Assembly: GCA_025355965.1 (NCBI GenBank) | Contig: JANXYR010000055.1 | Location: 1-64,000, forward strand | Direction: 5' to 3' | DNA length: 64,000 nt | Source of the DNA: Geobacteraceae bacterium | GTDB lineage: Bacteria; Desulfobacterota; Desulfuromonadia; Geobacterales; Pseudopelobacteraceae | Made by a program: the position numbers and the translations under genes | Shown: in pieces, positions 43,362 through 64,000 of the stretch | Layout: each line of letters begins with the position of its first letter | How positions within the stretch are numbered: position 1 is the stretch's first letter | Notes under the pieces: generated by a model | The model's input: only the letters and a program-made list of their open reading frames with translations | The model's database searches: none | Told to the model about the DNA's origin: nothing

Positions 43362-45476
43362 TCAGCTTTTATGTTCCTTGTAAAACTGCGCGAAATCATC
43401 TGCCGATAATGGCCTGCTGAAGTAAAAACCCTGTATAACCGAACAGCCTCTTTCCACAAGATATGCAAGCTGCTCCTCAGTTTCAACCCCCTCTGCAACC
43501 AGTTCCATATCCAACCCTTGCGCCATGGCAATGATCGTATTAACCACCGCTGCATCATTTCTAGTTACCAGCATCCGGCGGACAAACGATATATCTATTT
43601 TCAGCTCGTTAATCGGCAAGCGCCCCAGGTATTCAAGCGATGAATAGCCGGTTCCGAAATCATCCAGTGACAATATGACACCGATCTCAGCCAGTGCCGT
43701 CATTTTTTCAAGAGTGCGCGCGCTGTCGACCATGATTATGCTTTCGGTCAGTTCCAGACAGAGGTAACGCGGGTCAAGACCGGTAACTTCGAGTACCCGC
43801 TTGACTGTAACATCAAGATCACTGCGCATGAACTGCAGGGCCGAAATATTAACCGACACGCGCAATACCGGAAGACCAAGCTTCTGCCATTCAACGGCTT
43901 GCGAACAGGCCTGCCATAATACCCATTCGCCAACCGCCACAATCATGCCGCTCTCCTCTAGAATCGGTATAAATATGCCTGGTGGAACGCGGGCTGCACC
44001 GGTCGGAGTCCAACGCAGCAAAGCTTCCACACCGATCACAGTTCCATTAACATGGTCAATCTGTGGCTGATAGTTCAGGCAGAATTCACCAAGGTCAAGT
44101 GCTTTATGAAGCTTTGCCTCCAATTCAAAACGCTCCTCCAACTGGCTGTTCAATTCACGGTTGTATAAGCAGATTGAGTTCTTACCCTCTTTCTTGGCCT
44201 GGTACATGGCTGCTTCGCCATTTTTCAGAAGGCTTTCCGCACATTCGCCATCCTCCGGGTAAAGAACCACACCTATACTCGCAGTAGCAATGATCTCCGT
44301 GCCTCTTATGGTAAAGACATCGTTCATGGCACCGAGAATTTTCTCGGCACGTTGCCTTGCATCATCTGCATCTGTTGACAACGGCGGAATTATCGTAAAT
44401 TCATCCCCAACAAAACGTGATACTACGGAGCTGTGCCCACAGACCGTTTCCAGGCGGCGGGCAATCTCCTTCAGCAAAATATCCCCGAATTTGTGCCCAA
44501 AGGTATCATTTACATATTTGAGATTATCGATATCCAACACCATCAGTGTCAGGTACTGGCTATCGCGGTTGATCAACTCCATCTGCATCTCGAGATACGT
44601 CTGGAAATAATATCGATTCGTCAAGCCGGTCAGAACATCGAAATTTGCCTGATAATAGAGCTGCTCTTCATGGAGCTTGCGGGCGGTAATATCCTCTTTT
44701 ATAGCAACATAATTGGTAATAATGCCGTTCTCATCCTTGATCGGGGCAATACTGTTAAGCTCCCAGTAAAGCTTTCCATCCTTTGCCTTGTTGCAAAACT
44801 CACCCTGCCACTCCTCTCCGGCGGTAATCGTCTTCCACATATAAACGTAATAACTGTCTGGTTGCTTGCCGGATTTAAGGATACGCGGGTTCTGTCCGAT
44901 CACATCTTCACGGCTATAGCCGGATATCACCGTAAATTTTGGATTGACGTATTCAATATTCCCGTTGATATCGGTGATAACAACACTGTTGGCGCTCTGC
45001 TCCACGGCAGTGTTCAACTTGCGCAACTCCGCCGTCCGCTGTTTGACCAGCAGCTCCAGATTTTCATGATAGTCCCGGTTTTCCTTCACCAGCCTGGCTC
45101 TCTCAATACAACTGGCAACCATCAACTCCAGCTCAACCATATCGATAACCGGTTTACTCAGATAATCCCAGGCACCGCGCCGCAAGGCCTCTATCGCATC
45201 CGACAGCACACCGGTACCTGACAGGACAATTATCGGAAGGTTGTCATCAAGTCTTTTGGCCGCTTCTACTACCTCAATACCATCCACATTCGGCATGCGC
45301 AGATCAGTTATGACAACATCCGGATGCAATGTAGATATCTTGTCAATCCCCTCTTGACCATCGCACGCCTGCAGCACGGTAAAGCCGCAGTCTTCAAAAT
45401 AAGCCGCAACGCTGCTTCGGACTGATTCTTCGTCGTCAATGGTCAATAACACAAGATTGCCAGCTTGCAGTTCCAT
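43362..45476 (-). CDS. Receiver-PAS-GGDEF-EAL c-di-GMP phosphodiesterase
   Basis: 704 residues. A receiver domain (phospho-acceptor in VVITDLRMPN, Lys in YLSKPV), a PAS domain (VVITDINGNIEYVNPKF), a GGDEF domain and an EAL domain follow in order. The diguanylate site reads RFVGDEF, with Val replacing the first Gly, so synthase activity is doubtful. The EAL site is whole: VEALLRW, LELTES and DDFGTGYSS. Net output is probably c-di-GMP hydrolysis under phosphorelay control. It overlaps the preceding receiver gene by one base and ends the MCP-kinase-receiver operon. Confidence 0.9.
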   Translation of the reverse strand: MELQAGNLVLLTIDDEESVRSSVAAYFEDCGFTVLQACDGQEGIDKISTLHPDVVITDLRMPNVDGIEVVEAAKRLDDNLPIIVLSGTGVLSDAIEALRRGAWDYLSKPVIDMVELELMVASCIERARLVKENRDYHENLELLVKQRTAELRKLNTAVEQSANSVVITDINGNIEYVNPKFTVISGYSREDVIGQNPRILKSGKQPDSYYVYMWKTITAGEEWQGEFCNKAKDGKLYWELNSIAPIKDENGIITNYVAIKEDITARKLHEEQLYYQANFDVLTGLTNRYYFQTYLEMQMELINRDSQYLTLMVLDIDNLKYVNDTFGHKFGDILLKEIARRLETVCGHSSVVSRFVGDEFTIIPPLSTDADDARQRAEKILGAMNDVFTIRGTEIIATASIGVVLYPEDGECAESLLKNGEAAMYQAKKEGKNSICLYNRELNSQLEERFELEAKLHKALDLGEFCLNYQPQIDHVNGTVIGVEALLRWTPTGAARVPPGIFIPILEESGMIVAVGEWVLWQACSQAVEWQKLGLPVLRVSVNISALQFMRSDLDVTVKRVLEVTGLDPRYLCLELTESIIMVDSARTLEKMTALAEIGVILSLDDFGTGYSSLEYLGRLPINELKIDISFVRRMLVTRNDAAVVNTIIAMAQGLDMELVAEGVETEEQLAYLVERGCSVIQGFYFSRPLSADDFAQFYKEHKS

Positions 45477-45865
45477 TAAAATGGTCTCCCTTTTGCGGCA
45501 ACAAGCTTGATTTTGTCAACCAGCTTAGACAGATAGTGAATCGGCTTTAATATAACGTCATCAGCCGTCATGCCAATAGCTTGCAGTTCCTCTGACAAAG
45601 TGTACAGCATGCCAGTATGAAGCATAAAGCCTGTATAGGGGCAGAGAGCATAAGCAGAGACAATAAACTCCTCACCGTTCATACCAGGCAGACCCATGTC
45701 GGATATACAGACAGCCGGGCTTATAGAAACGATTGACTCCAAAGCTTCCTCAGCGCTGGCAGCACAATGCACACTAAACCCCTCATCCTCCAGATAAGCT
45801 GAAACACAGTCGCGAATCATTTCTTCATCATCAACGAGCAGAACCTTGATATCAGCGTTGTTCAT
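45476..45865 (-). CDS. Single-domain response regulator
   Basis: 129 residues from ATG 45865, overlapping the end of the PAS kinase gene by 14 bases. The receiver has DDEEMIRD acidic residues, phospho-acceptor Asp in VCISDMGLPGMNG and Lys in VILKPIHYLS. With no output domain it may relay phosphate from the neighbouring kinase to the GGDEF/EAL protein. A longer frame to 45973 exists but overlaps the kinase in another frame. Confidence 0.87.
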   Translation of the reverse strand: MNNADIKVLLVDDEEMIRDCVSAYLEDEGFSVHCAASAEEALESIVSISPAVCISDMGLPGMNGEEFIVSAYALCPYTGFMLHTGMLYTLSEELQAIGMTADDVILKPIHYLSKLVDKIKLVAAKGRPF

Positions 45866-47054
45866 TGCCCCCTCCTCTACAAGGAAGCTTAAGCGTAAAA
45901 CAGCTCCCCTCGCCAAGGCACGACCGGACATCGATCGAGCCGTGATGACGATTGGTAATGATGGCATAAGCAACAGATAGCCCCAGACCGGTACCGACGC
46001 CTACCTCCTTGGTAGAAAAAAACGGTTCAAAGACCCGCTGACGGGTGGTTTCATCCATACCCGGGCCGTTGTCTTCAATCTCAATCAGAGCCATACCTTC
46101 GGACAGCCCGGTTCGCACTGTAATTAGCGGCTGCCTGTTCATTGATGCAGAAGAGATAGCCTGAGCAGCATTTTTAAGGATATTCAGCAGTACTTGCTCT
46201 ATCTCCGCCACAACCATCCGTACCGGAGGTATACCAGCATCATAGGAGCGTTGCAGCCTGATCAGATTAAAATGATATTTTTTCTTCATGTCATAATCGG
46301 TGCCGGCTAACTTCATCACTCTATCCAGTAAAACTGAAAGATCGACGTATTCGACACCGGAATCACCCCGGCGACTGAATTGGAGCATATTTGATATAAT
46401 ATCGGAAGCCCTCATACCGGCGCTACGAATGTGACCAATAAAATCAAAGACCCCCCGTTTTTGCAAGTAAGCGCGCACCAGATCGAGACTGACACCAACC
46501 TCGGAAGCAGCTTTATAATTTGCCGGGATATCAGTGGATACCCGCCGCTCGATGTTCTGGGCATGCTGCAAAATGGCCCCGAGCGGATTATTGATCTCAT
46601 GCGCCATACCGGCCGCCATACCGCTAATCATGCTCATCTTTTCAGTCTGAGTCATAAGTTCTTCAATGCGGAGCCGTTCTGTGACATCCTGGCTAATGCC
46701 GATAATAGTCAAAATACCGTTTTCATCAATATGCGGTGTCCCGCGAGAAGTAAACCAGCGCCAACCACGTTCAGCATGTCGGATACGATAAGTAACCTCC
46801 TGAGTAGAGTTGGACTGTATCGCCTTCAAAATAGTTGTTTCGCAGCGAGGAATATCTTCTTGATGGACAAACTCACGGAAATTGTGTCCCACAACTTCAG
46901 ATGGCACATGCCCGAGAATCTTCTCCCAGGCAGGGGAAACATAGACAAAGTCGCCCTCCGTATCCAACGAGAAGATAATGTCACAGGAGTTTTCCACCAG
47001 CATCCGGTAGCGCGATTCACTTTTAAAAAATGTTTCTGATGATTTTGGTGGCAT
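45852..47054 (-). CDS. PAS sensor histidine kinase
   Basis: 400 residues without membrane segments. A PAS/PAC sensor (SRYRMLVENSCDIIFSLD, split) is followed by the dimerisation domain with the phospho-His in GMAHEINNPLGAI, and the ATPase with N box LNILKNAAQA, G1 IEDNGPGMD, F box VFEPFFSTK and G2 GTGLGLSVAY. All catalytic boxes are intact. It lies between a chemoreceptor and a receiver gene on one strand. Confidence 0.92.
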   Translation of the reverse strand: MPPKSSETFFKSESRYRMLVENSCDIIFSLDTEGDFVYVSPAWEKILGHVPSEVVGHNFREFVHQEDIPRCETTILKAIQSNSTQEVTYRIRHAERGWRWFTSRGTPHIDENGILTIIGISQDVTERLRIEELMTQTEKMSMISGMAAGMAHEINNPLGAILQHAQNIERRVSTDIPANYKAASEVGVSLDLVRAYLQKRGVFDFIGHIRSAGMRASDIISNMLQFSRRGDSGVEYVDLSVLLDRVMKLAGTDYDMKKKYHFNLIRLQRSYDAGIPPVRMVVAEIEQVLLNILKNAAQAISSASMNRQPLITVRTGLSEGMALIEIEDNGPGMDETTRQRVFEPFFSTKEVGVGTGLGLSVAYAIITNRHHGSIDVRSCLGEGSCFTLKLPCRGGGNEQR

Positions 47055-47070
47055 AACTTGTTCCTTAGGT

Positions 47071-47126: not shown

Positions 47127-47129
47127 GGG

Positions 47130-48773
47130 TTACAACTTGAACTGTCCGACAAGCTCTTTCAACTCTTCCGCCTGACGGGAAACATCATTGGCGGCAACTG
47201 CAGTTTCATGCAGGGCGTGGTCATTTTGCTTGGCCAAATCGTTCAGGTTCATGACGTTGCTGCTGATCTCGCGGGTCGTAGCGGTCTGTTCTTCGGCAGC
47301 GGTTGCAATCTGACTGATCTGCTCGGTTACATCGTTGATGATGTCGAGGATTTCCTGTAACGAACGACCGGAGTCAGCAGTATGGCTGGTCCCCTGCTCA
47401 ACCTGGGTCACACTCTGTTCCATTGAGGTGACCGCATCTTTGGTTTCTTTCTGAATGGCCTTGATCATTTCGCCGATCTCTTTGGTAGCACGGGTGGTAC
47501 GTTCGGCAAGGGCACGCACTTCGTCGGCAACAACCGCAAAGCCCCTTCCCTGTTCGCCGGCACGGGCTGCTTCAATAGCGGCATTCAGGGCCAGCAAGTT
47601 GGTCTGATCGGCGATGTCTTCGATAGTGCCGATGATAGCGCCGATCTGTTCTGAGCGGACTCCAAGTGCGCCAACGGTACTGGCGGCATTTTGAACCCGC
47701 TCAGCGATTGTGCTCATTACGGCGATTGATTGGCCGACGACAGCTACACCCTGGTTAGCTTTCTGGGTTGCGCCATTGGCGTTGGTGGCAGCGTGGTGAC
47801 AATTATTGGCGATGTCGCCGGAAGTGGCCGACATCTCTTCACCGGCGGTTGCCAGTGAGGTGGATTGTGAGGAAAGTTGAGCAATACTATCGGTCATCTG
47901 TTTTGTTGTCTGCTGAAGCTGCAGTGAAGATGAAGCCAGTTGCAGTGAGCTGCCGGAAACCTGGCAGATAATGCCGTGCAGTTTGCCGATAAAGGTATTG
48001 AACCATTCGCTCAGTTCGCCGATCTCGTTCTTGCCGAGGACCGGCAGACGGCGGGTCAAGTCACCTTCACCCTGGGCGATGTCCCTGATGGTATCGACCA
48101 CAGCCTTGATCGGACCGGTAATGGTACGGGAGACCAGCCATGCAAGCAGTATACTGAGCGCCAGGATGCCAAACAGGGCAATGCCGATACCGATCTGGAT
48201 CTGACGGACATGGGCGGTCACATCATCAACGTAGATACCGGTACCGATCACCCAGCCCCACGGCTGGTACAGTTCAACATAAGAAATTTTGGGTACCGGT
48301 TGAGAGTTGCCTGGTTTGGACCAGGCATAATCAACAAAGCCTTTCCCTTTGTCCTTGCATACCTGGACCATCTCCACAAATAGCGCCTTACCGTTGGGGT
48401 CCTTGTTTTCGCTCAGGTCCTTGCCGTTCAGTTCCGGCTTGAGAGGGTGCATAACCATTTTAGGACCAAGATCGTTGATCCAGAGATAGTTATTTCCATC
48501 GTATCGCATGGCGCCAATCCGCTCGGCAGCACGCTTCTGAGCTTCTTCTTTCGTGAGGGTTCCAGCTTCCACCTGTTTTTGGTAGGAAAACAGCAGACTG
48601 GTTGTTTCCTGCACCAGATAGCTGACGGTCGCTTTTTTCTCTGCCATGATCAGCCCGCGGATAAAAGGCACCAGCGCAAACATTGTAGCGAGAACCAACA
48701 CCAACCATGTCAGCAGTGACAGGCTCATTATCTTCGTAAAAATACCCCAGTCCTTGTACGCCTTGAATTGCAT
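47130..48773 (-). CDS. Methyl-accepting chemotaxis protein with single Cache sensor
   Basis: 547 residues from ATG 48773 (GAGGAGG upstream). A membrane helix near residue 20-45, a periplasmic single-Cache domain ([20 protein letters not shown], then [12 protein letters not shown]) and a second helix near 205-225 are followed by a HAMP domain and a signalling domain whose hairpin tip reads [20 protein letters not shown]. It responds to a small ligand, often a carboxylate. It starts an operon with a kinase and c-di-GMP enzyme, so it may signal to those rather than to flagella. Confidence 0.93.
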
Positions 48774-48838
48774 ATTGCCTCCTCGTAATACCAACGCTCT
48801 TGATACGTATAGATTGTAGATTTGTATCTAGATCAGAG

Positions 48839-48854
48839 AGCAGAGAACGTGCCA
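48839..48854 (-). promoter_or_regulatory. Sigma-54 promoter of the MCP operon
   Basis: The minus strand reads TGGCACGTTCTCTGCT: GG and GC ten bases apart, one change (C for T) from TTGC in the -12 element. It points at the MCP ATG 66 bases away. The NtrC-type activator gene is immediately upstream. Confidence 0.75.
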
Positions 48855-49040
48855 GAGGAATGAATATTAATTTTCAGTAAATACGGATAGTTATGAGTTT
48901 GTTTTTGGATGGGGGCTGCGACATAAATTGACTGATGCAAGCGCATTGTGTGGTTATATCTGATTTATCGGCATGTTACAGGATGTGCCAGATGTTGCAG
49001 CAGCAACTTTTGTCGCAGGGGGAGGATTCCCGCCAGCTCA

Positions 49041-50450
49041 TTATCCCTGCCGCGACAACCTTTTGTTAAGCGCCTGGCGGGTGATCCCCAGATATGCAGC
49101 GGCCAAACGCTGATTATTGTCAGCCATACGCAACGCCTCGGAGATCAGAAGATCCTCAGCCACCTTTAGAGTCGGGAACTTTTCGGCGAAAGGGCAGACC
49201 GGACAAAGGCTGCTGACCGGGACAGAAAATACGTTGGGGCGCAGACCGCTGTCGATCGCTGTCACTATCGACTCCAGCGACAAAGTGTGACTCACAGAAC
49301 GGGCAACGGCATCATGGATTATCGCTTCCAGCTCGCGGATATTGCCGGGAAAACGGTAGGCAGCCAGATAACGGTTCAATTCAGGCGGAGCGTTCGGAGT
49401 CATTTTACCAAGCAAAGCAGATGCCTTCTCCATAAAATGCGCCGTCAGCAGCGGTAGATCTTCGGGACGGTTACGGAGCGGCGGAAGCTCCACACGGTGG
49501 CTGCAGAGCCTGTAATACAGATCAGGACGAAATGTGCCCTGTTCCATCTTGAGTTTCAGATCAGCATGAGTGGCCGCCACAATCCGGACGTCACTCCTCA
49601 GCACCTTGTCGGCACCGAGCGGCAGGTATTCGCCCTCCTGCAGCAGCCTCAGAAGTTTGACCTGTGAACCGGGCGCCAGATCGCCGATCTCGTCCAAGAA
49701 AAGTGTGCCGCCTGACGCCTGGCGTATCAAGCCCTCGCGGACACGGTCAGCGCCGGTAAAGGCCCCGCGCAGATGACCGAAAAGTGTGTCGCTGAACATA
49801 CTGTCATCCAACCCGGCCAGGTTTATCGCCACAAACGGACCACCCAGTCCGCTTAAAGTATGGACCGCCCTTGCAATCAGCTCTTTGCCGGTACCGGTTT
49901 CTCCGGTAATCAGGACCGGTTGTCGTGATGGAGCGACAGATTCAAGATACAGAAAAATAGCGCGCATCCGGGATGAAGACGTGATGATGCTGCTGAAAGC
50001 GGACTCGTTCCCCAACGTCCCGTCAGAAAGGTGGCGACGCAGGCGCTCCAGCTCATATTTTGTACGGGCTCGTTCAAGAGAACGTTCCAGCATGATCTGC
50101 AGTTCTTCAAGATTCCCTATCGGCTTGGAAAGATAATCCCAAGCCCCCAAACGCATGGCCCGCACCGCCTCATTGACCTCACCTACTCCTGAAACTACCA
50201 CAATCGGCGTGAATTCAGATTCTGCCGCAATCGCTTCCACCAGTGCAAAACCATCCATCACCGGCATCCGCAGATCGGTCATGACAATGTCCGGACGCTG
50301 GTTTCTGAACTGTTCCAGCCCGATTTGGCCGTTTTCAGCTGACAGAACCCGGAAACCCATGTCGTCGAGAAAAACCGTCAACGACTCCCGGACATACCGT
50401 TCATCTTCGACCACCAGGATAGTCGGCTGTTTTTCGGTAAATGTTTTCAT
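49041..50450 (-). CDS. Sigma-54-dependent response regulator, NtrC type
   Basis: 469 residues: a receiver (phospho-acceptor in VMTDLRMPV, Lys in YLSKPI), an AAA+ domain with Walker A GETGTGKE, the sigma-54-contacting GAFTGA loop and Walker B GGTLFLDEIGD, then a Fis-type helix-turn-helix (LAAAYLGITRQALNKRL). A CPVCPF pair lies in the linker. It begins 27 bases after pelG and is probably the last gene of the pel operon. The hybrid kinase upstream of pelA is a natural phosphate donor. Confidence 0.94.
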   Translation of the reverse strand: MKTFTEKQPTILVVEDERYVRESLTVFLDDMGFRVLSAENGQIGLEQFRNQRPDIVMTDLRMPVMDGFALVEAIAAESEFTPIVVVSGVGEVNEAVRAMRLGAWDYLSKPIGNLEELQIMLERSLERARTKYELERLRRHLSDGTLGNESAFSSIITSSSRMRAIFLYLESVAPSRQPVLITGETGTGKELIARAVHTLSGLGGPFVAINLAGLDDSMFSDTLFGHLRGAFTGADRVREGLIRQASGGTLFLDEIGDLAPGSQVKLLRLLQEGEYLPLGADKVLRSDVRIVAATHADLKLKMEQGTFRPDLYYRLCSHRVELPPLRNRPEDLPLLTAHFMEKASALLGKMTPNAPPELNRYLAAYRFPGNIRELEAIIHDAVARSVSHTLSLESIVTAIDSGLRPNVFSVPVSSLCPVCPFAEKFPTLKVAEDLLISEALRMADNNQRLAAAYLGITRQALNKRLSRQG

Positions 50451-50477
50451 ATTTGGCTCGTAACCGTCTTCCTTGAC

Positions 50478-51848
50478 TTATTGCAGCATGAACGTTTCGT
50501 ATTCCAGACTGGTCAAATCACGATCCAGAACAAAAAGTCCACACATTATGGTTATACAGAGCGAGACGGCAAAACCATACCCATAATAAAATGGTCCCAT
50601 CCTGATTGACAAAAGGCTGAGCAGAAAGTTGAGTGCCGTAAACAGCATCGTCAGGGACAATGCTCGCCTGCGCCGGTCCAGATAAAAATAAATATTGAGA
50701 ATACCCAGTAACACGACCTGAAAACCTGCTCCGGCAACATCGATGTAGAGCAACGGCAGGAATACCGTGGGAATACCCAGCATTCCAAGCAGAGAGCGAC
50801 CCATAATAAATACGGCAATAGTGGCAATGGCCTGTGTCTTGATGATATCATAAATACCCTCTCGCGCCATGCGTACCATTTCGTCCTTCATCTCTTTGAT
50901 ATATGAAAGTGAGCCCCCCTCACGCACAGCATCGTAGTAACGGTCGTAGTATTCGACAAAGTCTGTCTCCATGCGCACAAGGAATACTGCCATGCCAGGC
51001 AAAATTGCCAGATACGCCAAAAATACCGGCAAATCGTAAATTTCAGAGGCGTTCAAAGGGCCGATGACATTGGTCCCGGTATAGGGATGAAACCAGAACA
51101 CAAATTTGTCTGCCCAGATGCCAAGATTATAAAACAGGCCGATAAAAACCAACGCCGGATAAATCCGCCCCTTACGCAAAAAGTCAAACTCTATCATAAC
51201 TCGTGAAGGGTAGTTTTTGAAGACGACAATCAGCATCCCCATAAGCAGTACAAACTGACCTATCAGAAAGGCCAGCATAAGCCCTTCAAGACCCCACACC
51301 CTTAAAAACAACACCAAAATAAGAGAAGTGCCATATCCCGCAGCAAAATTCAGAAGTATGGCTTTGTATGCTTTAAGTCCGGAAAGCAGAATTGCTCCAA
51401 TCCAGACATCTGAAAGAATAACAAATGTTGTGGCAAACAGCAGCCTGAAATAAAGTGAATTCTTCGGGAAAAGGAAGTATGTCATTGGAAATGCAACCAT
51501 ACCGCCAATAATAGTGACCAGGAACAGTAACCCTATCAGGTTCGGCATCAGGCGGTAATGCTCTTTTTCAAATATCCTGTCGGCACAATATCTGGTAAAA
51601 GCCAACTGGGTCAGGCCGGTATAGATAAGCGACATTGCAATAAGATAGGTGATACAGACCTGAAAATGTGAAACCAATATATTCGGGATAACCATCGGAA
51701 CAGAGATAATGCCGATAATAATTACTGCCAGAATAGAGAGTATCCATGGGCCGGAACTGATAATGCCGGCGTAAGCATAGGTCTGCAGCAGGGAAAAATA
51801 GGAATCCCGCTTGAGAAGCTTGCGTAGTTCGAAGCCGATTCCGGCCAT
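50478..51848 (-). CDS. pelG: Pel polysaccharide export membrane protein PelG
   Basis: 456 residues, the length known for PelG. It starts MAGIGFELRKLLKRDSYFSL, a PelG hallmark, and has about twelve membrane helices of a polysaccharide transporter/flippase-like fold. In the Pel system it works with PelD, PelE and PelF at the inner membrane. It shares one base with pelF. Confidence 0.95.
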   Translation of the reverse strand: MAGIGFELRKLLKRDSYFSLLQTYAYAGIISSGPWILSILAVIIIGIISVPMVIPNILVSHFQVCITYLIAMSLIYTGLTQLAFTRYCADRIFEKEHYRLMPNLIGLLFLVTIIGGMVAFPMTYFLFPKNSLYFRLLFATTFVILSDVWIGAILLSGLKAYKAILLNFAAGYGTSLILVLFLRVWGLEGLMLAFLIGQFVLLMGMLIVVFKNYPSRVMIEFDFLRKGRIYPALVFIGLFYNLGIWADKFVFWFHPYTGTNVIGPLNASEIYDLPVFLAYLAILPGMAVFLVRMETDFVEYYDRYYDAVREGGSLSYIKEMKDEMVRMAREGIYDIIKTQAIATIAVFIMGRSLLGMLGIPTVFLPLLYIDVAGAGFQVVLLGILNIYFYLDRRRRALSLTMLFTALNFLLSLLSIRMGPFYYGYGFAVSLCITIMCGLFVLDRDLTSLEYETFMLQ

Positions 51849-54290: not shown

Positions 54291-55600
54291 GCCACATCCA
54301 CAAGCAAATCAGCCAACTGATTCAACGGGTCATCAGCCGCCACCATAAAAGAGCGTGACGATACACCACCTTCACTGATTTTCACCCCGAAATCTTTACG
54401 AAACATCTCGTTCAGCCTTGCCATGTACCCCTCTACAGCTGCAGGCCCGGAGAAAGGCATCAGGGTTGCAAACTGAACTCCCCATCCCAGATCCCGGCGC
54501 CATCCGTGATCAAGGCCCCGCTGCTGCCGTTCAAGCGCAAGACACATGTCGTGCAGCCTTGCCGCAGGCATTACATTAACTACAACCAATGCGCTGGTAA
54601 CATCAAGTTCGCGCCGCAGTCGAACCATCTTGTACAATTCTGCGGCAAACATTGTCGGACAGTCCGGAAATACAGTCAGCAGACTGCGGGCTTCATAGGC
54701 AGCCTCGGCATGATCAGTCGCATACGCAAGCAAAACACCCAGTATCTGAAGCGTTTCACGTTTCAGTGCGAGAAAAGGCATCTCACTGACCAGCAGGATT
54801 CCTTTCGTGATTCCAGCGCTGGTACGCAGAGGAGCTGCCACCAGATAAGGGCTTTTCTCGTCTACAGCAAGACGGTTTATCGACTGGTAAGAGGCATTTC
54901 CTGTCTCGATGGCAGATCGGAGCAGAAGGTCATCCGCTTTGAAGAGTGCTCCGCGGCCACACTCGGCCACCGGTTTTTCCTGCATGCTCCCGTCATTTTC
55001 CATCAAATATATTGCGGCGCTCTCAAGGTTGCAGTAATGCACCAAAATTGAAATCAGCGCAGAACCGGTTTCCAGATCCAATAAGCCGCCATGTGAGGCC
55101 AGTATGCTGCGCAGGTCGATTAAGGCGTCCCGAAGAGTCACCGGTCTACTTATCAGATTCTGCTCCAGGCGGTCGTGAGACAGGCGCACCATAAAATAGG
55201 ACCGTGACAACTGTTCGAACCGCTCACTTGCATGGCGGCTCAACTGGTCGGAGCGCCGCAAACGCGTACTCCAGACAGTACTGAACTGGCCGCAAACCAT
55301 AGTCATTAGAATACCGCCGAGCATGAAAATCGTCGGGAATTCACCATTTAGAAGCCCCATCCTGAACAGGGACAGATAAAGCAGGCAGATTATGGCAATA
55401 GAAACCATACCTGGAGCAATCCCGTAACGAAGCGCTATCAGCAGCGGGGCAAACAGAACCCACTGAAAATCCGCCTTGATGAAAAATGGATCGGAGCGAT
55501 TGAGAAAATAACCCCCGGCAAGGATTATAGCTGTTATGACAAGCGTCTCCAGCCATCTTTCCGCTCTCTCGGACAGATATTTATTAAGCTTGAAACTCAT
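54287..55600 (-). CDS. pelD: c-di-GMP-binding regulator PelD
   Basis: 437 residues. Four membrane helices (about 17-130), a GAF domain (170-300) and a degenerate GGDEF domain follow one another. Arg361-x-x-Asp364 (RGLD) matches the place of the RxxD inhibitory site through which Pseudomonas PelD binds c-di-GMP; Arg416 is a possible further contact. The GGDEF catalytic motif itself is missing. Binding would switch on polymerisation. It overlaps pelC and pelE by four bases each. Confidence 0.92.
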   Translation of the reverse strand: MSFKLNKYLSERAERWLETLVITAIILAGGYFLNRSDPFFIKADFQWVLFAPLLIALRYGIAPGMVSIAIICLLYLSLFRMGLLNGEFPTIFMLGGILMTMVCGQFSTVWSTRLRRSDQLSRHASERFEQLSRSYFMVRLSHDRLEQNLISRPVTLRDALIDLRSILASHGGLLDLETGSALISILVHYCNLESAAIYLMENDGSMQEKPVAECGRGALFKADDLLLRSAIETGNASYQSINRLAVDEKSPYLVAAPLRTSAGITKGILLVSEMPFLALKRETLQILGVLLAYATDHAEAAYEARSLLTVFPDCPTMFAAELYKMVRLRRELDVTSALVVVNVMPAARLHDMCLALERQQRGLDHGWRRDLGWGVQFATLMPFSGPAAVEGYMARLNEMFRKDFGVKISEGGVSSRSFMVAADDPLNQLADLLVDVA

Positions 55601-56148
55601 TTTTGCGGATTCTTGGGACGTTCTTCAGGGAGCACACTGATTTCTCCCAGCAGGCGTTCCAACACCTGTTGGGCCACTGAACTGACTGCATCACGGCTCC
55701 AGCCGCTCTTGCCGGCAGCGCCGCTCCAGACAATCTTCCCCTCCGGCAATTCTATAAGTTGCAGTGTGAAGGCGGCCACCGGTTCGCCGTCCAGGCCGAC
55801 TTTGTAGCGCCATTCATTAACAGCACCGGTCAGCACATAGCGTATTTTTTTCTGCTTTGCCAGTTCCATTGCTTCACGCTGACGCTTTTCACCGCGGTCC
55901 ATGCCCAGCTCTTCCGGTTTTGCTTCAACCGCAATCCGTTCCAGATGCTGTACACCACGTGCATAAAGCAGTGCGGCAACAATTGACTCACACCGTTCGG
56001 CGGCATAAGGTGTTTCTGTGTTGTTGACAAATGGAACCAGGCCCCAGTTTTCCTGGAAGGAGACCGCTCTCCCACTCTGGTTCAAGGTTACACAACCAGC
56101 CAAGCTGAGAGTTACTGCAATTAGAAGCATTGTTATCAAATGTTTCAT
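55597..56148 (-). CDS. pelC: Outer-membrane lipoprotein PelC
   Basis: 183 residues with a lipobox LSLAGC (Cys19 to 20 region). The mature part carries VLTGAVNEWRYKVG and VWSGAAGKSGWSRD, typical of PelC, which forms a ring on the periplasmic face of the outer membrane and guides the cationic polymer to the PelB barrel. It lies 13 bases after the pelB C-terminal gene. Confidence 0.9.
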   Translation of the reverse strand: MKHLITMLLIAVTLSLAGCVTLNQSGRAVSFQENWGLVPFVNNTETPYAAERCESIVAALLYARGVQHLERIAVEAKPEELGMDRGEKRQREAMELAKQKKIRYVLTGAVNEWRYKVGLDGEPVAAFTLQLIELPEGKIVWSGAAGKSGWSRDAVSSVAQQVLERLLGEISVLPEERPKNPQK

Positions 56149-56161: not shown

Positions 56162-58990
56162 TCATTCGAAATAATAGCGATACAGCAGATCTGCACGGGT
56201 TGTTAGAGCGCTGATACCAAAAGAACCGCTATCTTGTGAAAAAGACAGCTCCAGCTTGTCCAGACCAAATACCGGACCTACCAGCCCAAAATCGTAGTGA
56301 AATCCGGTACCAGTTGTACTGGTCCAGCTTGCATCAACAGAAGTAAAGGGTTGCCATTGCCTCACGTAATTTGCACGCCCATCCCGCCCGATACTTATGC
56401 CGACGCCCGCCTGGGTAAATGTTGCGGGGACATAATAGGATGGATTGGCAACTGCAACAGGTATCAGCGAGAGTGCCTTGCCGACCGGTGTGCCGGTTCT
56501 GTCATAGTAATGATACCCGGCAAATGTCCGCAGATTCGTATCAGGCCAACTACTTAAAAACCGGTGAGTCAATTCACCTTCAAATGCAACCCCTCGTCCC
56601 AACTCTCTACGCTCCTGATCACGCAGGTACTGCCCGGAAACGTGCAAAGACAGCATATCACGTGATGTAAGAGAACTCAAAAGACCGATTTTGGCCTCAT
56701 CCTTTATCCCGCCGATCTTCATATATACATCTTCTGTCCCGGCTGTCCCCATCAAAAGTGCAAAATCTATCGTCAAACGATTGTTCACTTTCAAGTCACT
56801 CTGTATTGACGATGATAGATAACGGGAAAGAGAATCAGTAACACCTGCCGTAAACTCGGCAGTTCCCCGTTCATGGCGCATTAGGAATCCAAGTTGAGCA
56901 TTCTGCGCACTACTGACATGCTCTCCAAGAATACCGGCTCTCAGGTGCCGAATATCTGTATTGCCGACCTCAACACGCAAAGAATAGCGTGGAGTAACTG
57001 TAAAGGTGTGAGAAAAGCGTTGTTCCAGAAATCCTACACCGTCCTGATCCATCAGGCTCATGCGATAACGGAATCCGCCAGGGCGACTGCCGTAGAGAAT
57101 CCGTAACTGCTGATCCAGCAGATGGTCGCGGTCATTGATCTGAAAACCTTCAAAAGCTTGGGTCTCTGCAACTGGAAACCACCCGACACGCGATGCACCT
57201 TCAACCGCGTCCCTGTATGGCAGGCGTTGCAACTCTTTTTGCAATAGTCCCATAATACGGGGGCGATCGTTTTCGTCCAAAGCAAAAGACAGCTCCGCCC
57301 AAAGCGGTCGCTGAGTCATGCGAGTAAACTCTTTCCAATACCACATCCGCCCGAAATCACTCCTGCCACTAGACAGAGCCCAGGCAATAACCAGTTCACG
57401 ACTGGCCGCATCCTGTGGAGAACGCATTATTGTCTGCATCTGCCGATCAAGTGGCTCGCCCGGTTCTACCCGCATTGCCAGAGTGGCATAACTGTTTAGC
57501 AAAGTACGCCGCTCTGTTTCTGATAAAGCCTGACCGCCTTTCATCTGTTTACGTACAAGATGAAGCGCCCGTAAACGTTCGAGAAAAGCCGGTTCCGGCC
57601 ACCCGAACTGTTCCATGGCATCAGCGTAACCGGCCAACCAGGAGGGGTCATTGCGCATTTTACTGTAACGCGCCTGAAAGTAGATCAGCGACTCGCTATA
57701 TTCTCCCAGATATAAGTAAGCCGCAGCATAGGCGTCAAACATAACCGGCATTGATTGCACTCGTTCTTTCCAGCCTTCGAGTGTCTTTTGCAGTTCTTCT
57801 CTTTGCCCTAGATCCAACAACAGCCAGATATATCCTTCAGCCAGAGAGAGATCGTGCGGCGCAAGTACAAGTGCGTGCTGATAGCTGCGCATACTTGCGA
57901 GCGAATCTCCGGCACCTTGATATACCTGCGCAACAAGCCGCCAATAATAAGTTGACTCCCCCATGGACTCCGGTAATAAAGAGTGCTCGGACTTCTGTAT
58001 AAGGGTTATAAGCTCCTTGTAACGTTTCTGTGTCGTTCCAAGTTCCAGCAGAGTAATCAAATACCCCCCCTTACCCAAACGTTCCCAAGCTTCCATAGCC
58101 AGATCATAAGCCCGGCCAGGATTTTTTTCTCTGGTCAACAGGACCAGACGCTGGTAATCCACATCACGCCCAACACCGGCATCCACCAGCAATTGCGCAG
58201 CCTTTTCCGCAGTGCGTAAATCCTGTAGCGCCCAGGCCAAATCACCGAATGTTTGCCAGTATTCCTGTTCTGCAGGAGGGGTCTGCTGTTCGCCGAGAGC
58301 CAGAATGTTATATGCCGCCATAACATCCCTGGAACCGTAAGCCAGTGAGGCCGCTTTGAGCAAATCTGTCGCTGACACGCCATAACTTGCAGTTTTATCA
58401 AGCAGAGAATCAATGGCATACTTATGTTGACCAACCGCTTCATATAATCTGGCAAGTTGTTCCAACACATACTTCCGGTCCGCCCCACCCCGCTGATTTT
58501 CCAATGCCGCAATCGCATCTTCGGGGATACCTAACAACTCACAAACAGCCACATACTCCCTTAGTGACGCTGGACTACCGGTAAAGCCACGCATTTCGAG
58601 CAGAAACTTGAGCCGGACTCTGTCTCCAAGTGCCCGTGCCAATCTTAATGATTGATCAACTGCATCCTGCTGATTAAGCTCCTTGGCAAGAAAAAGCCAA
58701 TGTTGAAGAGCCTTGGCTGAATTTCCTGACCATTCACCACTCTGTGCCGCTTTGCGACGCCATACCGGGTCACTCGGCCTTGAGGCAACGGCCTTTTCTG
58801 CCAGAAGGAACGCTTCAGCAGAATTGCTGTTGGCAAGAAAAACCTCATAACTGAGCCCATAAAGTTCCGCATCAAAGGGTATTCCGGGGGCCATCGGCGG
58901 AGGTGCCTCTTCAGCACGGCACGATATGGCAGCACCCAAAGGCGTCACTGCCAGCAGAAATGCAGCTATCCAGCACAGAACAGGTTTCAC
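56162..58990 (-). CDS. pelB: PelB C-terminal part: TPR superhelix and outer-membrane barrel
   Basis: 942 residues with a signal peptide (ends near LGAAISCRA). Repeated TPR units run from about 45 to 560, and the last 300 residues are a beta-barrel with alternating strands ending YRYYFE. In Pseudomonas one 1193-residue PelB carries both an N-terminal membrane helix with TPRs and this part. Here the start is a GTG that shares a base with the stop of the preceding gene (TAGTG), so the two parts are separate proteins. The signal peptide makes the split functional rather than a frameshift. Confidence 0.88.
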   Translation of the reverse strand: MKPVLCWIAAFLLAVTPLGAAISCRAEEAPPPMAPGIPFDAELYGLSYEVFLANSNSAEAFLLAEKAVASRPSDPVWRRKAAQSGEWSGNSAKALQHWLFLAKELNQQDAVDQSLRLARALGDRVRLKFLLEMRGFTGSPASLREYVAVCELLGIPEDAIAALENQRGGADRKYVLEQLARLYEAVGQHKYAIDSLLDKTASYGVSATDLLKAASLAYGSRDVMAAYNILALGEQQTPPAEQEYWQTFGDLAWALQDLRTAEKAAQLLVDAGVGRDVDYQRLVLLTREKNPGRAYDLAMEAWERLGKGGYLITLLELGTTQKRYKELITLIQKSEHSLLPESMGESTYYWRLVAQVYQGAGDSLASMRSYQHALVLAPHDLSLAEGYIWLLLDLGQREELQKTLEGWKERVQSMPVMFDAYAAAYLYLGEYSESLIYFQARYSKMRNDPSWLAGYADAMEQFGWPEPAFLERLRALHLVRKQMKGGQALSETERRTLLNSYATLAMRVEPGEPLDRQMQTIMRSPQDAASRELVIAWALSSGRSDFGRMWYWKEFTRMTQRPLWAELSFALDENDRPRIMGLLQKELQRLPYRDAVEGASRVGWFPVAETQAFEGFQINDRDHLLDQQLRILYGSRPGGFRYRMSLMDQDGVGFLEQRFSHTFTVTPRYSLRVEVGNTDIRHLRAGILGEHVSSAQNAQLGFLMRHERGTAEFTAGVTDSLSRYLSSSIQSDLKVNNRLTIDFALLMGTAGTEDVYMKIGGIKDEAKIGLLSSLTSRDMLSLHVSGQYLRDQERRELGRGVAFEGELTHRFLSSWPDTNLRTFAGYHYYDRTGTPVGKALSLIPVAVANPSYYVPATFTQAGVGISIGRDGRANYVRQWQPFTSVDASWTSTTGTGFHYDFGLVGPVFGLDKLELSFSQDSGSFGISALTTRADLLYRYYFE

Positions 58991-59877
58991 TAAGCCCCCG
59001 TCTGATGTTTAGGCGTTTCCATACCAAGAGCACGTCTGACAAGGCGCTGAGCCCGTGCCGGCTCCCCGGCAGCCAAACCGACCCTGGTTAGAAAAATCAG
59101 GGTGGCGCGGTCTGACTTTAGTCCGTCGATGTTCCGTTCGCCCGCTTCAAATGCCTCCTTTGGCAGGTTGCCAGCCTGCAGCATACGCACAGCACGAAAC
59201 AACAGCTCCCTCCGTTTTGCAAGCGTATCGGCCTGTTTCATCAGCCCAAAACAGATAGCAGCACCTCTGCGGTAATCGCCAGCTATCTGGGCCTTTGCCG
59301 CTTCATCGTCCGGCTGTGTGTTCTCCAGGGTTTCCTTGGCAGCAAGTTTCTGGTTATATTCCTGCCATAATTCCAGATCTCCGGCTTTGCGTGCATCGTT
59401 GGCAAAATCCCGCAAACGCCAGGCCGGTGGGTTCTTTCCTCCCAATTCATTGGCAGCCAAAGCTACAAGAGGTTTCAGACGACTCCACTCTGCGCTACCC
59501 GGATTAGACTGAACAAACATGTTTTTTAATGCCATATATTTAAGCTCGATCAGCAAACGTTTTTGAGCCCCGGTAATCCCGGTTGGAACACCCGAAAGCA
59601 CCACCAAGGCCCTGCGAGAACCACCGGAACGCACCAGCGAGGCTGCCACCCTGAAACGCAACTCCGTATCATCCGGACGTATGCGCAGTAGCGCCTCCCG
59701 GTAACGAATTGTAGTTGCATCATCACCAGTGCCAAGAACACCCAGCAGGCCCTGCTCCGGATAAAGGAGAACCAGCACCAGCATAAAGGCACAGAAAATC
59801 GCAATTACACTTAAAGGCGTAGCAAAGCGCTCCCTCTTTGCTGTTTCAGGATTACCGGCAGTCGACTGTGAACGCAT
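58990..59877 (-). CDS. PelB N-terminal part: membrane-anchored TPR protein
   Basis: 295 residues. One membrane helix (about 22-42, LSVIAIFCAFMLVLVLLYP) is followed by periplasmic TPR-like helices (ATTIRYREALLRIRPDD, AQRLVRRALGME). It corresponds to the N-terminal end of Pseudomonas PelB that contacts PelA. It overlaps pelA by 26 bases and the C-terminal gene by one. Together the two parts have about 1237 residues, near the length of a single PelB. Confidence 0.82.
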   Translation of the reverse strand: MRSQSTAGNPETAKRERFATPLSVIAIFCAFMLVLVLLYPEQGLLGVLGTGDDATTIRYREALLRIRPDDTELRFRVAASLVRSGGSRRALVVLSGVPTGITGAQKRLLIELKYMALKNMFVQSNPGSAEWSRLKPLVALAANELGGKNPPAWRLRDFANDARKAGDLELWQEYNQKLAAKETLENTQPDDEAAKAQIAGDYRRGAAICFGLMKQADTLAKRRELLFRAVRMLQAGNLPKEAFEAGERNIDGLKSDRATLIFLTRVGLAAGEPARAQRLVRRALGMETPKHQTGA

Positions 59878-62614
59878 GCTTTCCTTCAGGCAGCTCCGCT
59901 ACCAGTTCATTAATATTTCCGCTTGTCACGGCTTTGATGCCTTTGGAAAAACGACACCCCTTGGCATTACCAATATGGATTCTAAATGGTGTATAACCAT
60001 GCAATCCCAATTTCAAACTATTGTTACCCCGTTCGAGGTAGTCAAGAAAACCTCCCGCAGACGCAAGATACGGTTCAGCAGGGGATAATTTTTCAAGCTG
60101 CACCCGAGCCTCACCGCCAGGCAGAAGATGCAGGTAACGGCTGTCACCATGATCGTTAAATCCAGCTACTTTATTGCTATTTTGCAGATCAGGATATCCA
60201 AGAGTGCGGGGAATACGGATCTGGCGCATTTGCCCGTTATTACGTATCAACCAGCCGGAACCATCCCAGGCAATTACCGTTCGATTAAAGTCAAGTACCT
60301 TCTCAATATACTCTGATGTGTAAATAGCAAACAACCTCTGCCCAATAGCCCAATCATGCACTTGTTTAAGGGCGTGTAGTGATGCCTCTTTGGTTGCGGA
60401 ATAAAAATGATAGTAGATATCAACCGGTTTAAACCGTATTGGTAAATCCGTTAATCTGAAGGTTTCCAACACTCGCTTATAACCATAGAACGGTCCGGTC
60501 CAGAGATTTGTATAAACATTTTCGTTCTGATTAGGGGCAAAAACTTGAAAAAAGTCCCCTCTTGGTATGCCTAGTGGAGCAACACTACTAATACTACGAT
60601 TCGATCCGGTGATCAGCGTATTGCCACCGTTAATATTAAGGGCACCAGCTTCGTAGGTCATCCTGACGGCCTCTTCCCCCGGAACGCAATTGCCGGTCCA
60701 CTGAAAAATGCGGGCCTTTTTTCCCGGAGGCATCAAGTTCAGGTTGATGTAGTCCAGCGAACCGGCAATTTCATCCTTCAGGTTGAAGGAGTACCCTGGA
60801 ATTTTGACCGCTGGCCAGACCTGCGTTCCTGTTTCCGTCTGATCCGGCTTCCATCTAAATGGATGCGAGAAGGAATGACTTGCTCCTTCAACATTTGAAA
60901 GTGCCAAAATACCTCGGGCTATATTCTCCAGCTGCGGCGCCAGAAGCGGTTTTATACCGTTTTTGGTAAATGAGCTGGTGATAAGCGAGATGGTTGTCGG
61001 TATGCGGTAGCGTTCCAGGATATGCTTACGCAGTTCCTCAGCCGCAAACCTTCCGCCGGGCCACTCAGCGCGACTTTCGAAGCCGTCACCATCCACATGG
61101 GACAGTAGTAGTCGTACACCATTCTCTGTAGTGACATCCGGAACAGGCATGTCCCGCAGACGCAACGCATCCTTGAAAAAGCTTAACGGATTCACCACCC
61201 ACGCAGTCTGTTCTCCAAAAAGAGGCGCCATTACGTACGGCTCAAGCACATAACCACCCCAAGCAGTTATCGCTGCCGCATCACTGACAATCACATTGCC
61301 TGACAAGAGTTGCAGCAAAGACTTCCCGGTCGTCAACTTTATCGGAACAAAATCGTCAGCATGCGGCAGTGGTTGCTGTTCAAAGCCAATACGCTGATCT
61401 TTCATAATGACCTTGATCGGCGGAACAATCTTTTCTGCAGGCACCGACTCCAAGCCAAGAGAAGAGAGGTAACCGGCATCAAATGTCACACCGAAACGAT
61501 CCAAAAAAACAATTGGTACACCTTCGGAAATACGCCGTAATGTCCAATCCTTTAGTCCTTGCTTTTCCCCGGAACGACTTGAATATGGCCACACAAGCAC
61601 GCCTGCATAACGTCCTTCAAGAATCCCTTCCGGCAACGGTTCCCTCAGGTCATGCAGCTTCACCGTATATCCCATGTAATTCAGCGGCATTACCGCATAA
61701 CGCTGGAGATTGGTAAAGAAGGCGTCCCCATTCCCTTCGGCACCGTCATAAAGCCCAAGAACCGTTCGCGGCATAACTTCTAGCGACCCGACCCCCAAAC
61801 TGGCCAGATCCTTATCTGCCACCCAAGGGATAAAGCCCAGTGCTTTGATTTTTTCTGCGGTCTGCCTTGCAAGATCGCGCTTGCCCGGCGGGACATAGTC
61901 TATGGCAATCACCGGCACGCCGGCTCTTTTGACCTCGTTCAGCCTCGCAGTCAACCACTCCCGGTCATTAGGCGCCACTTCGCTGTATTGACCGGTGGCT
62001 GGGCTGAAATTTTGGTACAGGGATTCCGCTGCAACAGCAAAAACAATGTCTTTAATCTTGGGGAATATCTCAAAGCCTCGATTCAAGATCAGGCGAGCTT
62101 CCGGATGGCGCTTTTTGATCGCACGCACTGTCTCTGCCAAACCAAATTCCATAGCAGCCAGCCTGCTTTTATCGGTTGACAACTGATATGAATCCATCGT
62201 GTCGAGAAAAAAACCCCTGTACCCGGCACTCCACAGCGGTTCAACCACTTTATCCAGAAAGAATTCGCGCCACTCAGGGCTTGAAACATCAATAACCTTT
62301 GAATTCCAGTCCTTGTTCTCGCAAACAAACCATTTCCGATCCATCTGCTTCGTATAATTGCGATTCGGGTCTGCCTCTCCGATACTGACATAGGCGAACA
62401 GGCTACTCGGCCCTGCACCATAGACTTCCGGTGCCAGCCCGCTATCCGGATCAACTACAACAGCATCAAATACCTTCAGCTCATTAATCGGGGGATTCGG
62501 AGCATAATAAAGGGCTACGCTGAATGGCTTTTGTGAAGAAGCACCACAAGCCGTTCCGCAGAGGACCAGAACCGTAATCAATATAATCAGACGAATACAT
62601 CCCTGAATCGTCAT
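59852..62614 (-). CDS. pelA: PelA, periplasmic glycoside hydrolase and deacetylase
   Basis: 920 residues with a signal peptide ending near residue 25. The N-terminal hydrolase barrel (GH166-like) has LYYAPNPPINELKVFD and RGFFLDTMDSYQ. A middle domain with a glutamine-amidotransferase-like fold follows, and the C-terminal deacetylase (CE18-like) has LLSHVDGDGFESR (Asp pair) and SHSFSHPF (His-x3-His). PelA deacetylates and trims Pel polysaccharide in the periplasm. It opens the operon, about 80 bases after the sensor kinase gene; I saw no good sigma-54 site in that gap. Confidence 0.93.
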   Translation of the reverse strand: MTIQGCIRLIILITVLVLCGTACGASSQKPFSVALYYAPNPPINELKVFDAVVVDPDSGLAPEVYGAGPSSLFAYVSIGEADPNRNYTKQMDRKWFVCENKDWNSKVIDVSSPEWREFFLDKVVEPLWSAGYRGFFLDTMDSYQLSTDKSRLAAMEFGLAETVRAIKKRHPEARLILNRGFEIFPKIKDIVFAVAAESLYQNFSPATGQYSEVAPNDREWLTARLNEVKRAGVPVIAIDYVPPGKRDLARQTAEKIKALGFIPWVADKDLASLGVGSLEVMPRTVLGLYDGAEGNGDAFFTNLQRYAVMPLNYMGYTVKLHDLREPLPEGILEGRYAGVLVWPYSSRSGEKQGLKDWTLRRISEGVPIVFLDRFGVTFDAGYLSSLGLESVPAEKIVPPIKVIMKDQRIGFEQQPLPHADDFVPIKLTTGKSLLQLLSGNVIVSDAAAITAWGGYVLEPYVMAPLFGEQTAWVVNPLSFFKDALRLRDMPVPDVTTENGVRLLLSHVDGDGFESRAEWPGGRFAAEELRKHILERYRIPTTISLITSSFTKNGIKPLLAPQLENIARGILALSNVEGASHSFSHPFRWKPDQTETGTQVWPAVKIPGYSFNLKDEIAGSLDYINLNLMPPGKKARIFQWTGNCVPGEEAVRMTYEAGALNINGGNTLITGSNRSISSVAPLGIPRGDFFQVFAPNQNENVYTNLWTGPFYGYKRVLETFRLTDLPIRFKPVDIYYHFYSATKEASLHALKQVHDWAIGQRLFAIYTSEYIEKVLDFNRTVIAWDGSGWLIRNNGQMRQIRIPRTLGYPDLQNSNKVAGFNDHGDSRYLHLLPGGEARVQLEKLSPAEPYLASAGGFLDYLERGNNSLKLGLHGYTPFRIHIGNAKGCRFSKGIKAVTSGNINELVAELPEGKHAFTVDCR

Positions 62615-62694
62615 ACCATCCTCTCAACACATTAATTACATCAATAAAAAAACGTTGTTTTCAAAGGGTTCCAAATTGACACAACAGTGCCCAG

Positions 62695-64000
62695 CTACCG
62701 CAATGCATCCGCCACTGCCCGGCTCAGTTCACTACGGTTATACGGTTTTTGAATAAAGCCGCGGGCGCCCAGCGCTAGCAACTCTTCACCGGTTCCTTCG
62801 CGGTTGAATCCGGAGCAGAACAGCACTCTCACTTCCGGATCCAGTTCACGTAACCGTAGAAGAACCTCCTTGCCTCCCATCTTCGGCATAATCATGTCCA
62901 ACATAACCAGCAAGATATCGCCCCGATGGGCGGCAAACACCTCCAGTGCCTGTTCTCCATGTTCAGCCAGATAAACCGTATAACCCAAGTCTTCGAGCAA
63001 ATTTCGACCAACGTCACGCAGAATTTTTTCATCATCAACCAGGAGAATTCCGCCTTTTCCGGCAACAGAATCTTCATTACATATTGGAGAAACCGCTCCC
63101 CCTTCTATCATCGGGAGGTAGATTTTGAACACCGAGCCGACTCCTGGTTCACTCTGTACATACAATTCGCCTTGATGGCTCCGAACGGTTCCGTAAATAG
63201 CCGCTAAACCAAGCCCGGTGCCTTTGCCGACCTGTTTTGTGGTAAAAAACGGTTCGAAGATATGTTCCATAACTTCTTTTGTCATGCCGACCCCGGTATC
63301 TGACACAGCAATTTCAAGATAACTGCCTGGTGCCAGAGATATGCCCATCAACCGGCAGGCGGACTCATCCAGCGTTTTTACGGCGGTTGCATAGGTTAGA
63401 GTGCCACCATCAGGCATGGCATCACGGGCATTAACACCAAGATTAAGAAGTGCATTCTGTAACTGGGTCTGATCGCCCAGCACAAAAGGATTACCACTAT
63501 CCAAGTTGCGTGTAAGCTCTATCTGCTTGTCAATAGTGTGCTCCAGCAGACTGATGACGACGGCAATGGTGTCATGGATGCAAACCAGGTTTGAAACCGC
63601 TGTTCCTTTGCGGGAGAATGTCAGCAGTTCGCGGGTCAGGTCTGCGGAACGCGTCGTTGCTTCGATGATGATATCCACCATCTTATGGTTTTTGTCATCA
63701 CAATGCAGACGGCGCTTCAGCAATTCGGCAGCGGCCATGATCCCGGCCAGCATATTATTAAAATCATGGGCAATGCCGCCGGCTAACTGACCAACTACAT
63801 CCATCTTTTGCGACTGAAGCAACAGGTTTTGGAGCCGCTTTTGCTCCGAGATATCCATAATTGCGGCCAAAACAAACGGGCGGTCACCTATTTTCAGCAG
63901 GGTAGCGGAAACAATCGTATCAAATTCCTCGCCACCCTTCCGGCAGGCTCCCACTTCAATGTTGTGAACATAGTCGTTGTCCTTCAACAATTGCAGGTAG
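62695..64000 (-). CDS. Hybrid sensor histidine kinase, 5' end outside window
   Basis: 434 residues are visible and the frame is open past the window edge. A PAS/PAC end (VLAAIMDISEQKRLQ), the dimerisation domain with GGIAHDFNNMLAGI, an ATPase with LNLGVNARDAM, VSDTGVGM, IFEPFFTTK and GTGLGLAAIYG, and a C-terminal receiver (ILLVDDEKILRD, LLVMLDMIMPKMGG, FIQKPYN) follow in order. All catalytic boxes are whole. It sits on the same strand upstream of pelA and likely feeds the NtrC-type regulator at the other end of the operon. Confidence 0.92.
   Translation of the reverse strand, partial: YLQLLKDNDYVHNIEVGACRKGGEEFDTIVSATLLKIGDRPFVLAAIMDISEQKRLQNLLLQSQKMDVVGQLAGGIAHDFNNMLAGIMAAAELLKRRLHCDDKNHKMVDIIIEATTRSADLTRELLTFSRKGTAVSNLVCIHDTIAVVISLLEHTIDKQIELTRNLDSGNPFVLGDQTQLQNALLNLGVNARDAMPDGGTLTYATAVKTLDESACRLMGISLAPGSYLEIAVSDTGVGMTKEVMEHIFEPFFTTKQVGKGTGLGLAAIYGTVRSHQGELYVQSEPGVGSVFKIYLPMIEGGAVSPICNEDSVAGKGGILLVDDEKILRDVGRNLLEDLGYTVYLAEHGEQALEVFAAHRGDILLVMLDMIMPKMGGKEVLLRLRELDPEVRVLFCSGFNREGTGEELLALGARGFIQKPYNRSELSRAVADALR

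Follow-up and report, generated by a model that had tools for sequence, protein, structure and literature searches.

A pel operon nested in a two-component, sigma-54 and c-di-GMP module in a Geobacteraceae genome

Introduction

The pelABCDEFG operon of Pseudomonas aeruginosa and other Proteobacteria (surveyed in PMC7112194) has a counterpart in an uncultured Geobacteraceae bacterium, where we analysed a cluster of genes at positions 43362-64000 of a 64,000-nucleotide stretch of contig JANXYR010000055.1 (the window). The gene order is the same in both, with PelA, PelB, PelC, PelD, PelF and PelG recognized by profile, sequence or structure matches and PelE by position, and PelD carries the RxxD motif. 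Compared with the P. aeruginosa-type operon, however, the window holds an extra 295-amino-acid gene, and its pel genes sit between genes for a kinase and an activator.

Control of pel by FleQ (PMC10723142) provides a second point of comparison, as it also involves a sigma-54-type AAA+ activator tied to cyclic diguanosine monophosphate (c-di-GMP) and pel. In contrast to FleQ, the window activator has a phosphorylatable receiver, its sites are found only at an operon that begins with a gene for a methyl-accepting chemotaxis protein (MCP), and no binding at pel is predicted. With NtrC-family two-component systems in general the locus shares receiver (REC), AAA+ and Fis-type helix-turn-helix (HTH) domains, a GAFTGA motif and tandem enhancers upstream of a -24/-12 promoter, whereas the enhancer sequence and three-site spacing are specific to the window's family and pel is inserted between kinase and regulator.

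Sigma-54 promoters before che/mcp operons were predicted earlier in Geobacteraceae (PMC2577667), and one Geobacter beta-group chemosensory cluster affects the extracellular matrix, according to unpublished data cited in the same work. The window operon resembles these che clusters in its promoter, but it ends in an EAL-domain protein and neither cheA nor cheW is found in it, so it is not classed as a che operon itself. In the open-access literature we found no description of pel with sigma-54, or of pel inserted into a two-component operon, in this arrangement. The locus is a new combination of known parts, in which a pel operon is nested in a two-component, sigma-54 and c-di-GMP module.

A probably foreign pel operon within an older module

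All genes of the locus lie on the minus strand. In the direction of transcription they encode a hybrid histidine kinase (HyHK), PelA, the 295-residue protein, PelB, PelC, PelD, PelE, PelF, PelG and an NtrC-type activator, followed, after 246 nucleotides (nt) that include a promoter, by the MCP, a PAS-domain kinase, a single-domain receiver and a REC-PAS-GGDEF-EAL protein. The original prediction of a hybrid kinase upstream of pel and an activator gene (ntrC) as the last in the series is correct in both place and strand. The C-terminal half of hyHK occupies 62695..64000 of the window and the whole gene about 62695-65493 of the contig; Pfam matches to the full open reading frame (ORF) reveal a weak periplasmic ABC_sub_bind-like sensor, PAS, HisKA, HATPase and REC domains. 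The activator (49041..50450), identified by Pfam and motifs, has a REC domain with Asp59, an AAA+ domain with GAFTGA at residue 229 and a Fis-type HTH, which together place it among the NtrC-type sigma-54 activators. The sigma-54 contact motif reads GAYTGA in many orthologs, while the recognition-helix region LAAAYLGITRQALNKRL is almost invariant across 19 ortholog rows. The genome carries one copy of rpoN.

The window genome (G000) was compared with other genomes, which include a genus set of 39. Two relatives, G043 and G012, have the order hyHK, ntrC, MCP, PAS kinase, REC, EAL, which is the order of the window minus pel. The kinase gene adjoins or overlaps ntrC (separated by no more than about 30 nt, or with start and stop codons that overlap) in 11 relatives that have no pel at this place. 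Because of this adjacency, the proposed pairing of HyHK with the activator appears to be real, with phosphotransfer between them predicted. MCP orthologs are 84-95 percent identical in ten further genomes, and orthologs of the EAL gene (about 71-88 percent identity) are present in most of the 39 genus genomes. Gene order therefore indicates a genus-wide HyHK-NtrC-(MCP)-PAS kinase-REC-EAL module that predates the insertion of pel and in most cases occurs without it. In G001, G005, G010, G019, G021 and G041 the PAS-kinase-REC-EAL genes are separated from ntrC or MCP by a chemosensory operon (CheA, CheW, MCP, CheR, CheD, CheB and others), which suggests that the module is a chemosensory/c-di-GMP circuit; the window, G012 and G043 have the form without the che core.

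The module also varies in its kinase. In loci L070, L071, L080, L081 and L072 (genomes G052, G023, G048, G013 and G009) HyHK stands directly before PAS-kinase-REC-EAL, with neither ntrC nor MCP, and may be linked directly to that phosphorelay. In L075, L077, L078 and L079 (G001, G010, G041 and G021) the genes before ntrC encode a stand-alone receiver and another kinase in place of HyHK, and it appears that the kinase partner was swapped while the output cassette stayed.

The history of pel is different. Among 23 pel-bearing genomes of the order Geobacterales, in which two pel loci end at or just past pelG and some upstream flanks are short, only the window genome and G015 have pel flanked by a kinase and activator of the HyHK/NtrC type. 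A search with PelG across 395 genomes of the phylum, with short flanks, revealed no further ntrC or hyHK directly after pelG. In a tree of Pel proteins, the G000 and G015 sequences branch (support 0.99-1.0) with those of genera g12 and g10 and of one genome from another family, away from the Pel proteins of congeners G001, G005, G041 and G047. In the module tree, G000 and G015 fall together beside the pel-less G012 and G043. The Pel phylogeny points to horizontal acquisition of pel. Since the two trees conflict and pel is flanked in this manner in just two genomes, a single event in which a foreign pel operon entered exactly at the hyHK-ntrC junction, in the common ancestor of G000 and G015, explains the arrangement; the window ntrC departs from that of its relatives in no more than its first few codons.

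A rigid sigma-54 promoter and enhancer cassette

The -24/-12 promoter box before the MCP gene, TGGCACGTTCTCTGCT (48839..48854, minus strand), has the correct GG/GC spacing and one mismatch, and ends 65 nt upstream of the MCP ATG. At two mismatches the sigma-54 consensus occurs at chance level (43 sites in the window versus 41 expected), so a single box alone is weak evidence, and conservation and enhancers were used instead. Within 68.5 kb of the contig, counting both strands, the MCP box is one of only two sites with an intact GG/GC and no more than one mismatch. It occupies the equivalent position before MCP in 12 of the genomes compared, and in G040 and G044, which have no MCP gene, it stands before the PAS-kinase gene. 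Among the upstream regions of this set, it is missing only in G015. Across 14 box-bearing sequences, the mean major-allele frequency is 0.94 and 0.97 for the box and 0.93 and 0.85 for two upstream dyads, compared with 0.61 for the rest of the region.

These enhancer dyads, with the consensus TGCGACAnAAGTTGC, are present in three copies in the window. Dyad 1 (TGCGACAAAAGTTGC, 49003..49017, minus strand) is centred at -170 from the -12 element and dyad 2 (TGCGACATAAATTGA, 48917..48931, plus strand) at -84, while a weaker, degenerate third copy, dyad 1b (TGTGCCAGATGTTGC, 48984..48998, plus strand), is centred at -151, 19 nt from dyad 1. Across the promoters compared, the three centres lie at about -173, -154 and -86. 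The outermost falls at -170 to -175 in every promoter with the box, and most of these promoters have the other two at -151 to -157 and at -84 to -88; this spacing is fixed although the DNA between the dyads has diverged. Regions contain on average 2.15 enhancer sites, versus 0.026 in shuffled sequences. The consensus was derived from some of the compared sequences, and the other tests are partly independent: the 3.35-Mb genome has just two exact copies of the enhancer core, each of them upstream of MCP, and the paired pattern is present in 17 of the 39 genus genomes versus 1 of 39 for a reversed control.

The same cassette is located just downstream of ntrC in G001, G010, G021 and G041 and at a second promoter of G005, all of which were left out of the first alignment, and there it is positioned to drive another operon. 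A representative locus is L078 4400-18425 (G041), where, as in G001, G005, G010, G019 and G021, the activator-enhancer-sigma-54 cassette precedes a full chemosensory operon. Two short ORFs of 112 and 125 amino acids, with no Pfam match, lie before cheA in these operons.

Promoter and enhancers thus appear to form a rigid cassette, and the promoter itself is strongly supported by its recurrence in relatives and by the enhancer array at fixed distances, a pattern typical of sigma-54-dependent operons. The same evidence supports the earlier proposal that the activator turns on the MCP/EAL operon, which is its predicted target.

Relation of pel to the module

Gene content, module age, the insertion, the foreign origin of pel, the promoter-enhancer cassette and the residues of interest are all supported by the computations. 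We consider it probable that they are parts of the following sequence of events. An ancestral module, comprising hyHK-ntrC and the sigma-54 operon for MCP, PAS kinase, REC and EAL proteins, would have gained a foreign pel operon, in a single event, exactly at the point where hyHK meets ntrC. HyHK would phosphorylate the activator, which would bind the three dyads downstream of its own gene and open the sigma-54 promoter for the chemoreceptor, PAS kinase, receiver and c-di-GMP phosphodiesterase genes. Because the genes from pelA to ntrC are tightly packed, with only 27 nt separating pelG from ntrC and no strand-matching terminator between them, ntrC is probably co-transcribed with pel. If it is translated from the pel transcript, the activator level would follow pel expression and Pel production would arm the phosphodiesterase operon. 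When the kinase is active, c-di-GMP would then fall and PelD would switch off, a possible delayed brake in the window genome, where the effect of the EAL protein on Pel is predicted.

The more specific claim, that the insertion wired pel to the pre-existing sigma-54 phosphodiesterase operon in such a way that Pel synthesis builds its own kinase-gated c-di-GMP brake through ntrC on the pel transcript, we hold to be doubtful. Several points weigh against the sequence of events as a whole. A separate pel promoter may be present in the 80-nt gap between hyHK and pelA, or an ntrC promoter inside pelG. A scan of the pel region for sigma-70 promoters and terminators gave 19 promoter-like sequences versus 14.6 expected, and 24 terminator-like sequences versus 15.5; these counts are near noise and were not used. 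In about eight relatives the PAS-kinase operon comes straight after hyHK, with no ntrC, and HyHK may therefore have other partners. The G015 assembly, with the same insertion, lacks the enhancer pair: the search revealed two single unpaired matches elsewhere, with strand counts of one versus one for the reversed control. Its PAS-kinase-REC-EAL genes are on another contig behind another kinase, although all three G015 pieces stop at contig ends and the cassette may sit in a gap. Finally, a global phosphodiesterase may have no need to act on PelD.

A feedback loop conserved together with pel was considered and rejected, since pel is unlinked to the module in G001, G005, G041 and G047, four of the five other pel-bearing congeners. 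The co-occurrence of the two operons in relatives, which had been put forward as a check, is accordingly largely absent. Nor is the original prediction of a closed feedback loop built around pel borne out, as the module predates the insertion and usually lacks pel, and the loop is inferred for this one genome.

The strongest competing explanation, to which we assign a probability somewhat short of even, is that the neighbourhood arose by chance. By this account, pel has its own promoter and regulation in a tolerated site, while HyHK-NtrC and the MCP/EAL operon have a role in chemosensing or motility and do not affect Pel. The module does work without pel in most of the genus, its cassette drives a full chemosensory operon in relatives, and the unlinked pel loci of the four congeners fit this account. 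Moreover, no enhancer and no convincing sigma-54 site is present upstream of hyHK or pelA. Chance is harder to reconcile with the exact preservation of both flanking reading frames by the insertion, with its retention in two diverged species (about 90 percent identity), and with the short, terminator-free junction between pelG and ntrC.

The lack of sites upstream of hyHK and pelA also bears on the idea that the activator directly controls pel in addition to its MCP target. In P. aeruginosa, pel is under the control of FleQ, itself an activator of the sigma-54 type (PMC10723142), and in the window the genes are physically close. However, both exact enhancer cores of the genome are upstream of MCP, and the region before pelA contains only a sigma-54-like site with three mismatches (two in G015) that lies inside the hyHK coding region, with none upstream of hyHK. 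The FleQ mechanism differs as well, in that it involves a sigma-70 pel promoter and responds to c-di-GMP. Nothing was found to indicate control of pel transcription by the activator or the kinase. We conclude that the activator probably does not drive pel, and since the sites expected of a FleQ-type pel regulator are lacking, FleQ-like control was rejected as improbable.

Slightly less probable still is a positive loop, in which the EAL-containing protein raises c-di-GMP. This protein (43362..45476, minus strand; Pfam, with MorA as the nearest solved relative) does include a GGDEF domain, but each of the 17 orthologs has the degenerate motif FVGDEF, and none of them has lost any of the EAL catalytic residues checked. 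It is therefore probably a pure phosphodiesterase, in agreement with the prediction that the last gene of the operon lowers c-di-GMP. Least likely of all is an ancestral pel between hyHK and ntrC that was lost in all other relatives, for which there is no specific evidence. It would call for many separate losses, each precise enough to leave hyHK and ntrC adjacent or overlapping again, and the Pel and module phylogenies conflict with each other. Insertion of pel into an older module is thus the reading that we retain.

Genes of the pel and MCP operons

The predicted full pelA-G set on one strand was recovered, with the 295-residue gene as an addition; all of these genes are on the minus strand and overlap or nearly touch. 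PelA (59852..62614), a hydrolase/deacetylase, matches Pfam GH114 and the solved PelA structure 9cgy (phmmer E 2e-166, aligned over 860 residues). The adjacent 295-amino-acid ORF (58990..59877) has one transmembrane segment and a weak TPR_20 match (E 0.058), and nearly every Geobacterales pel operon examined carries it between the pelA and pelB genes. It probably represents the N-terminal part of PelB, split off as a gene of its own; fission of pelB is already known from other lineages (PMC7112194). The pelB gene itself (56162..58990) encodes TPRs and a C-terminal beta barrel (Pfam B-barrel_PelB_C, E 1e-50), and pelC (55597..56148) was identified by an LpoB-like fold match, its position and its conservation in order.

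PelD (54287..55600; Pfam PelD_GGDEF) is a predicted c-di-GMP receptor. In an alignment to the solved PelD, RGLD at 361-364 corresponds to R367 and D370 of the P. aeruginosa protein, and the Arg in YMARL aligns with YLQRL, the segment that holds R402. All three P. aeruginosa residues bind c-di-GMP (PMC2170427), and the window protein thus retains both the RxxD motif and the second Arg. The pelE gene (53364..54290) has no Pfam match and was assigned by position and by homologs, which 22 other pel loci of Geobacterales have at the corresponding position. PelF (51848..53359) is a glycosyltransferase (NCBIfam PelF equivalog, E 8e-223) and PelG (50478..51848) an inner-membrane exporter (Pfam PelG, E 3e-157). 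With PelA, PelD, PelF and PelG together on one strand, along with PelB, PelC and, by position and homology within the order only, PelE, the locus appears to be a complete pelA-G operon from which synthesis of Pel polysaccharide is predicted. Some other pel loci contain gaps of ~1.7 kb, with room for an extra gene, that are not present in the window operon, either between pelC and pelD (G001, G005, G041 and G047) or between pelB and pelC (G119 and G109).

The downstream operon is likewise on the minus strand. The MCP (47130..48773; Pfam) has an sCache_2 sensor. Its place and identity are as originally predicted, but its start is the ATG at 48773 rather than the TTG of the raw ORF at 48794. The PAS histidine kinase (45852..47054; Pfam and orthologs) is followed by the CheY-like single-domain receiver (45476..45865; Pfam), which is present as predicted, although its start required correction and is probably the ATG at 45865, the Met at which the G015 ortholog begins.

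Elsewhere in the window, a perfect sigma-54 consensus, TGGCACTAAAATTGCT, is located at 17986-18001 (minus strand) upstream of a 219-amino-acid ORF (17318-17977, minus strand) that starts with a signal-peptide-like stretch and is unrelated to pel.

Discussion

The insertion may have coupled Pel physically to a possible brake in the window genome. If true, a single insertion event would have newly tied a biofilm polysaccharide to a circuit that degrades c-di-GMP, and G012 and G043, the sister species without pel, would represent natural before-states of this insertion. The cassette of activator, enhancers and promoter, which is conserved across the Geobacter-type genus and is predicted to control chemosensory and c-di-GMP genes, has clear DNA sites at fixed spacing, and its regulon is therefore directly testable. 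The most useful results are this enhancer-promoter cassette and the pair of states before and after the insertion.

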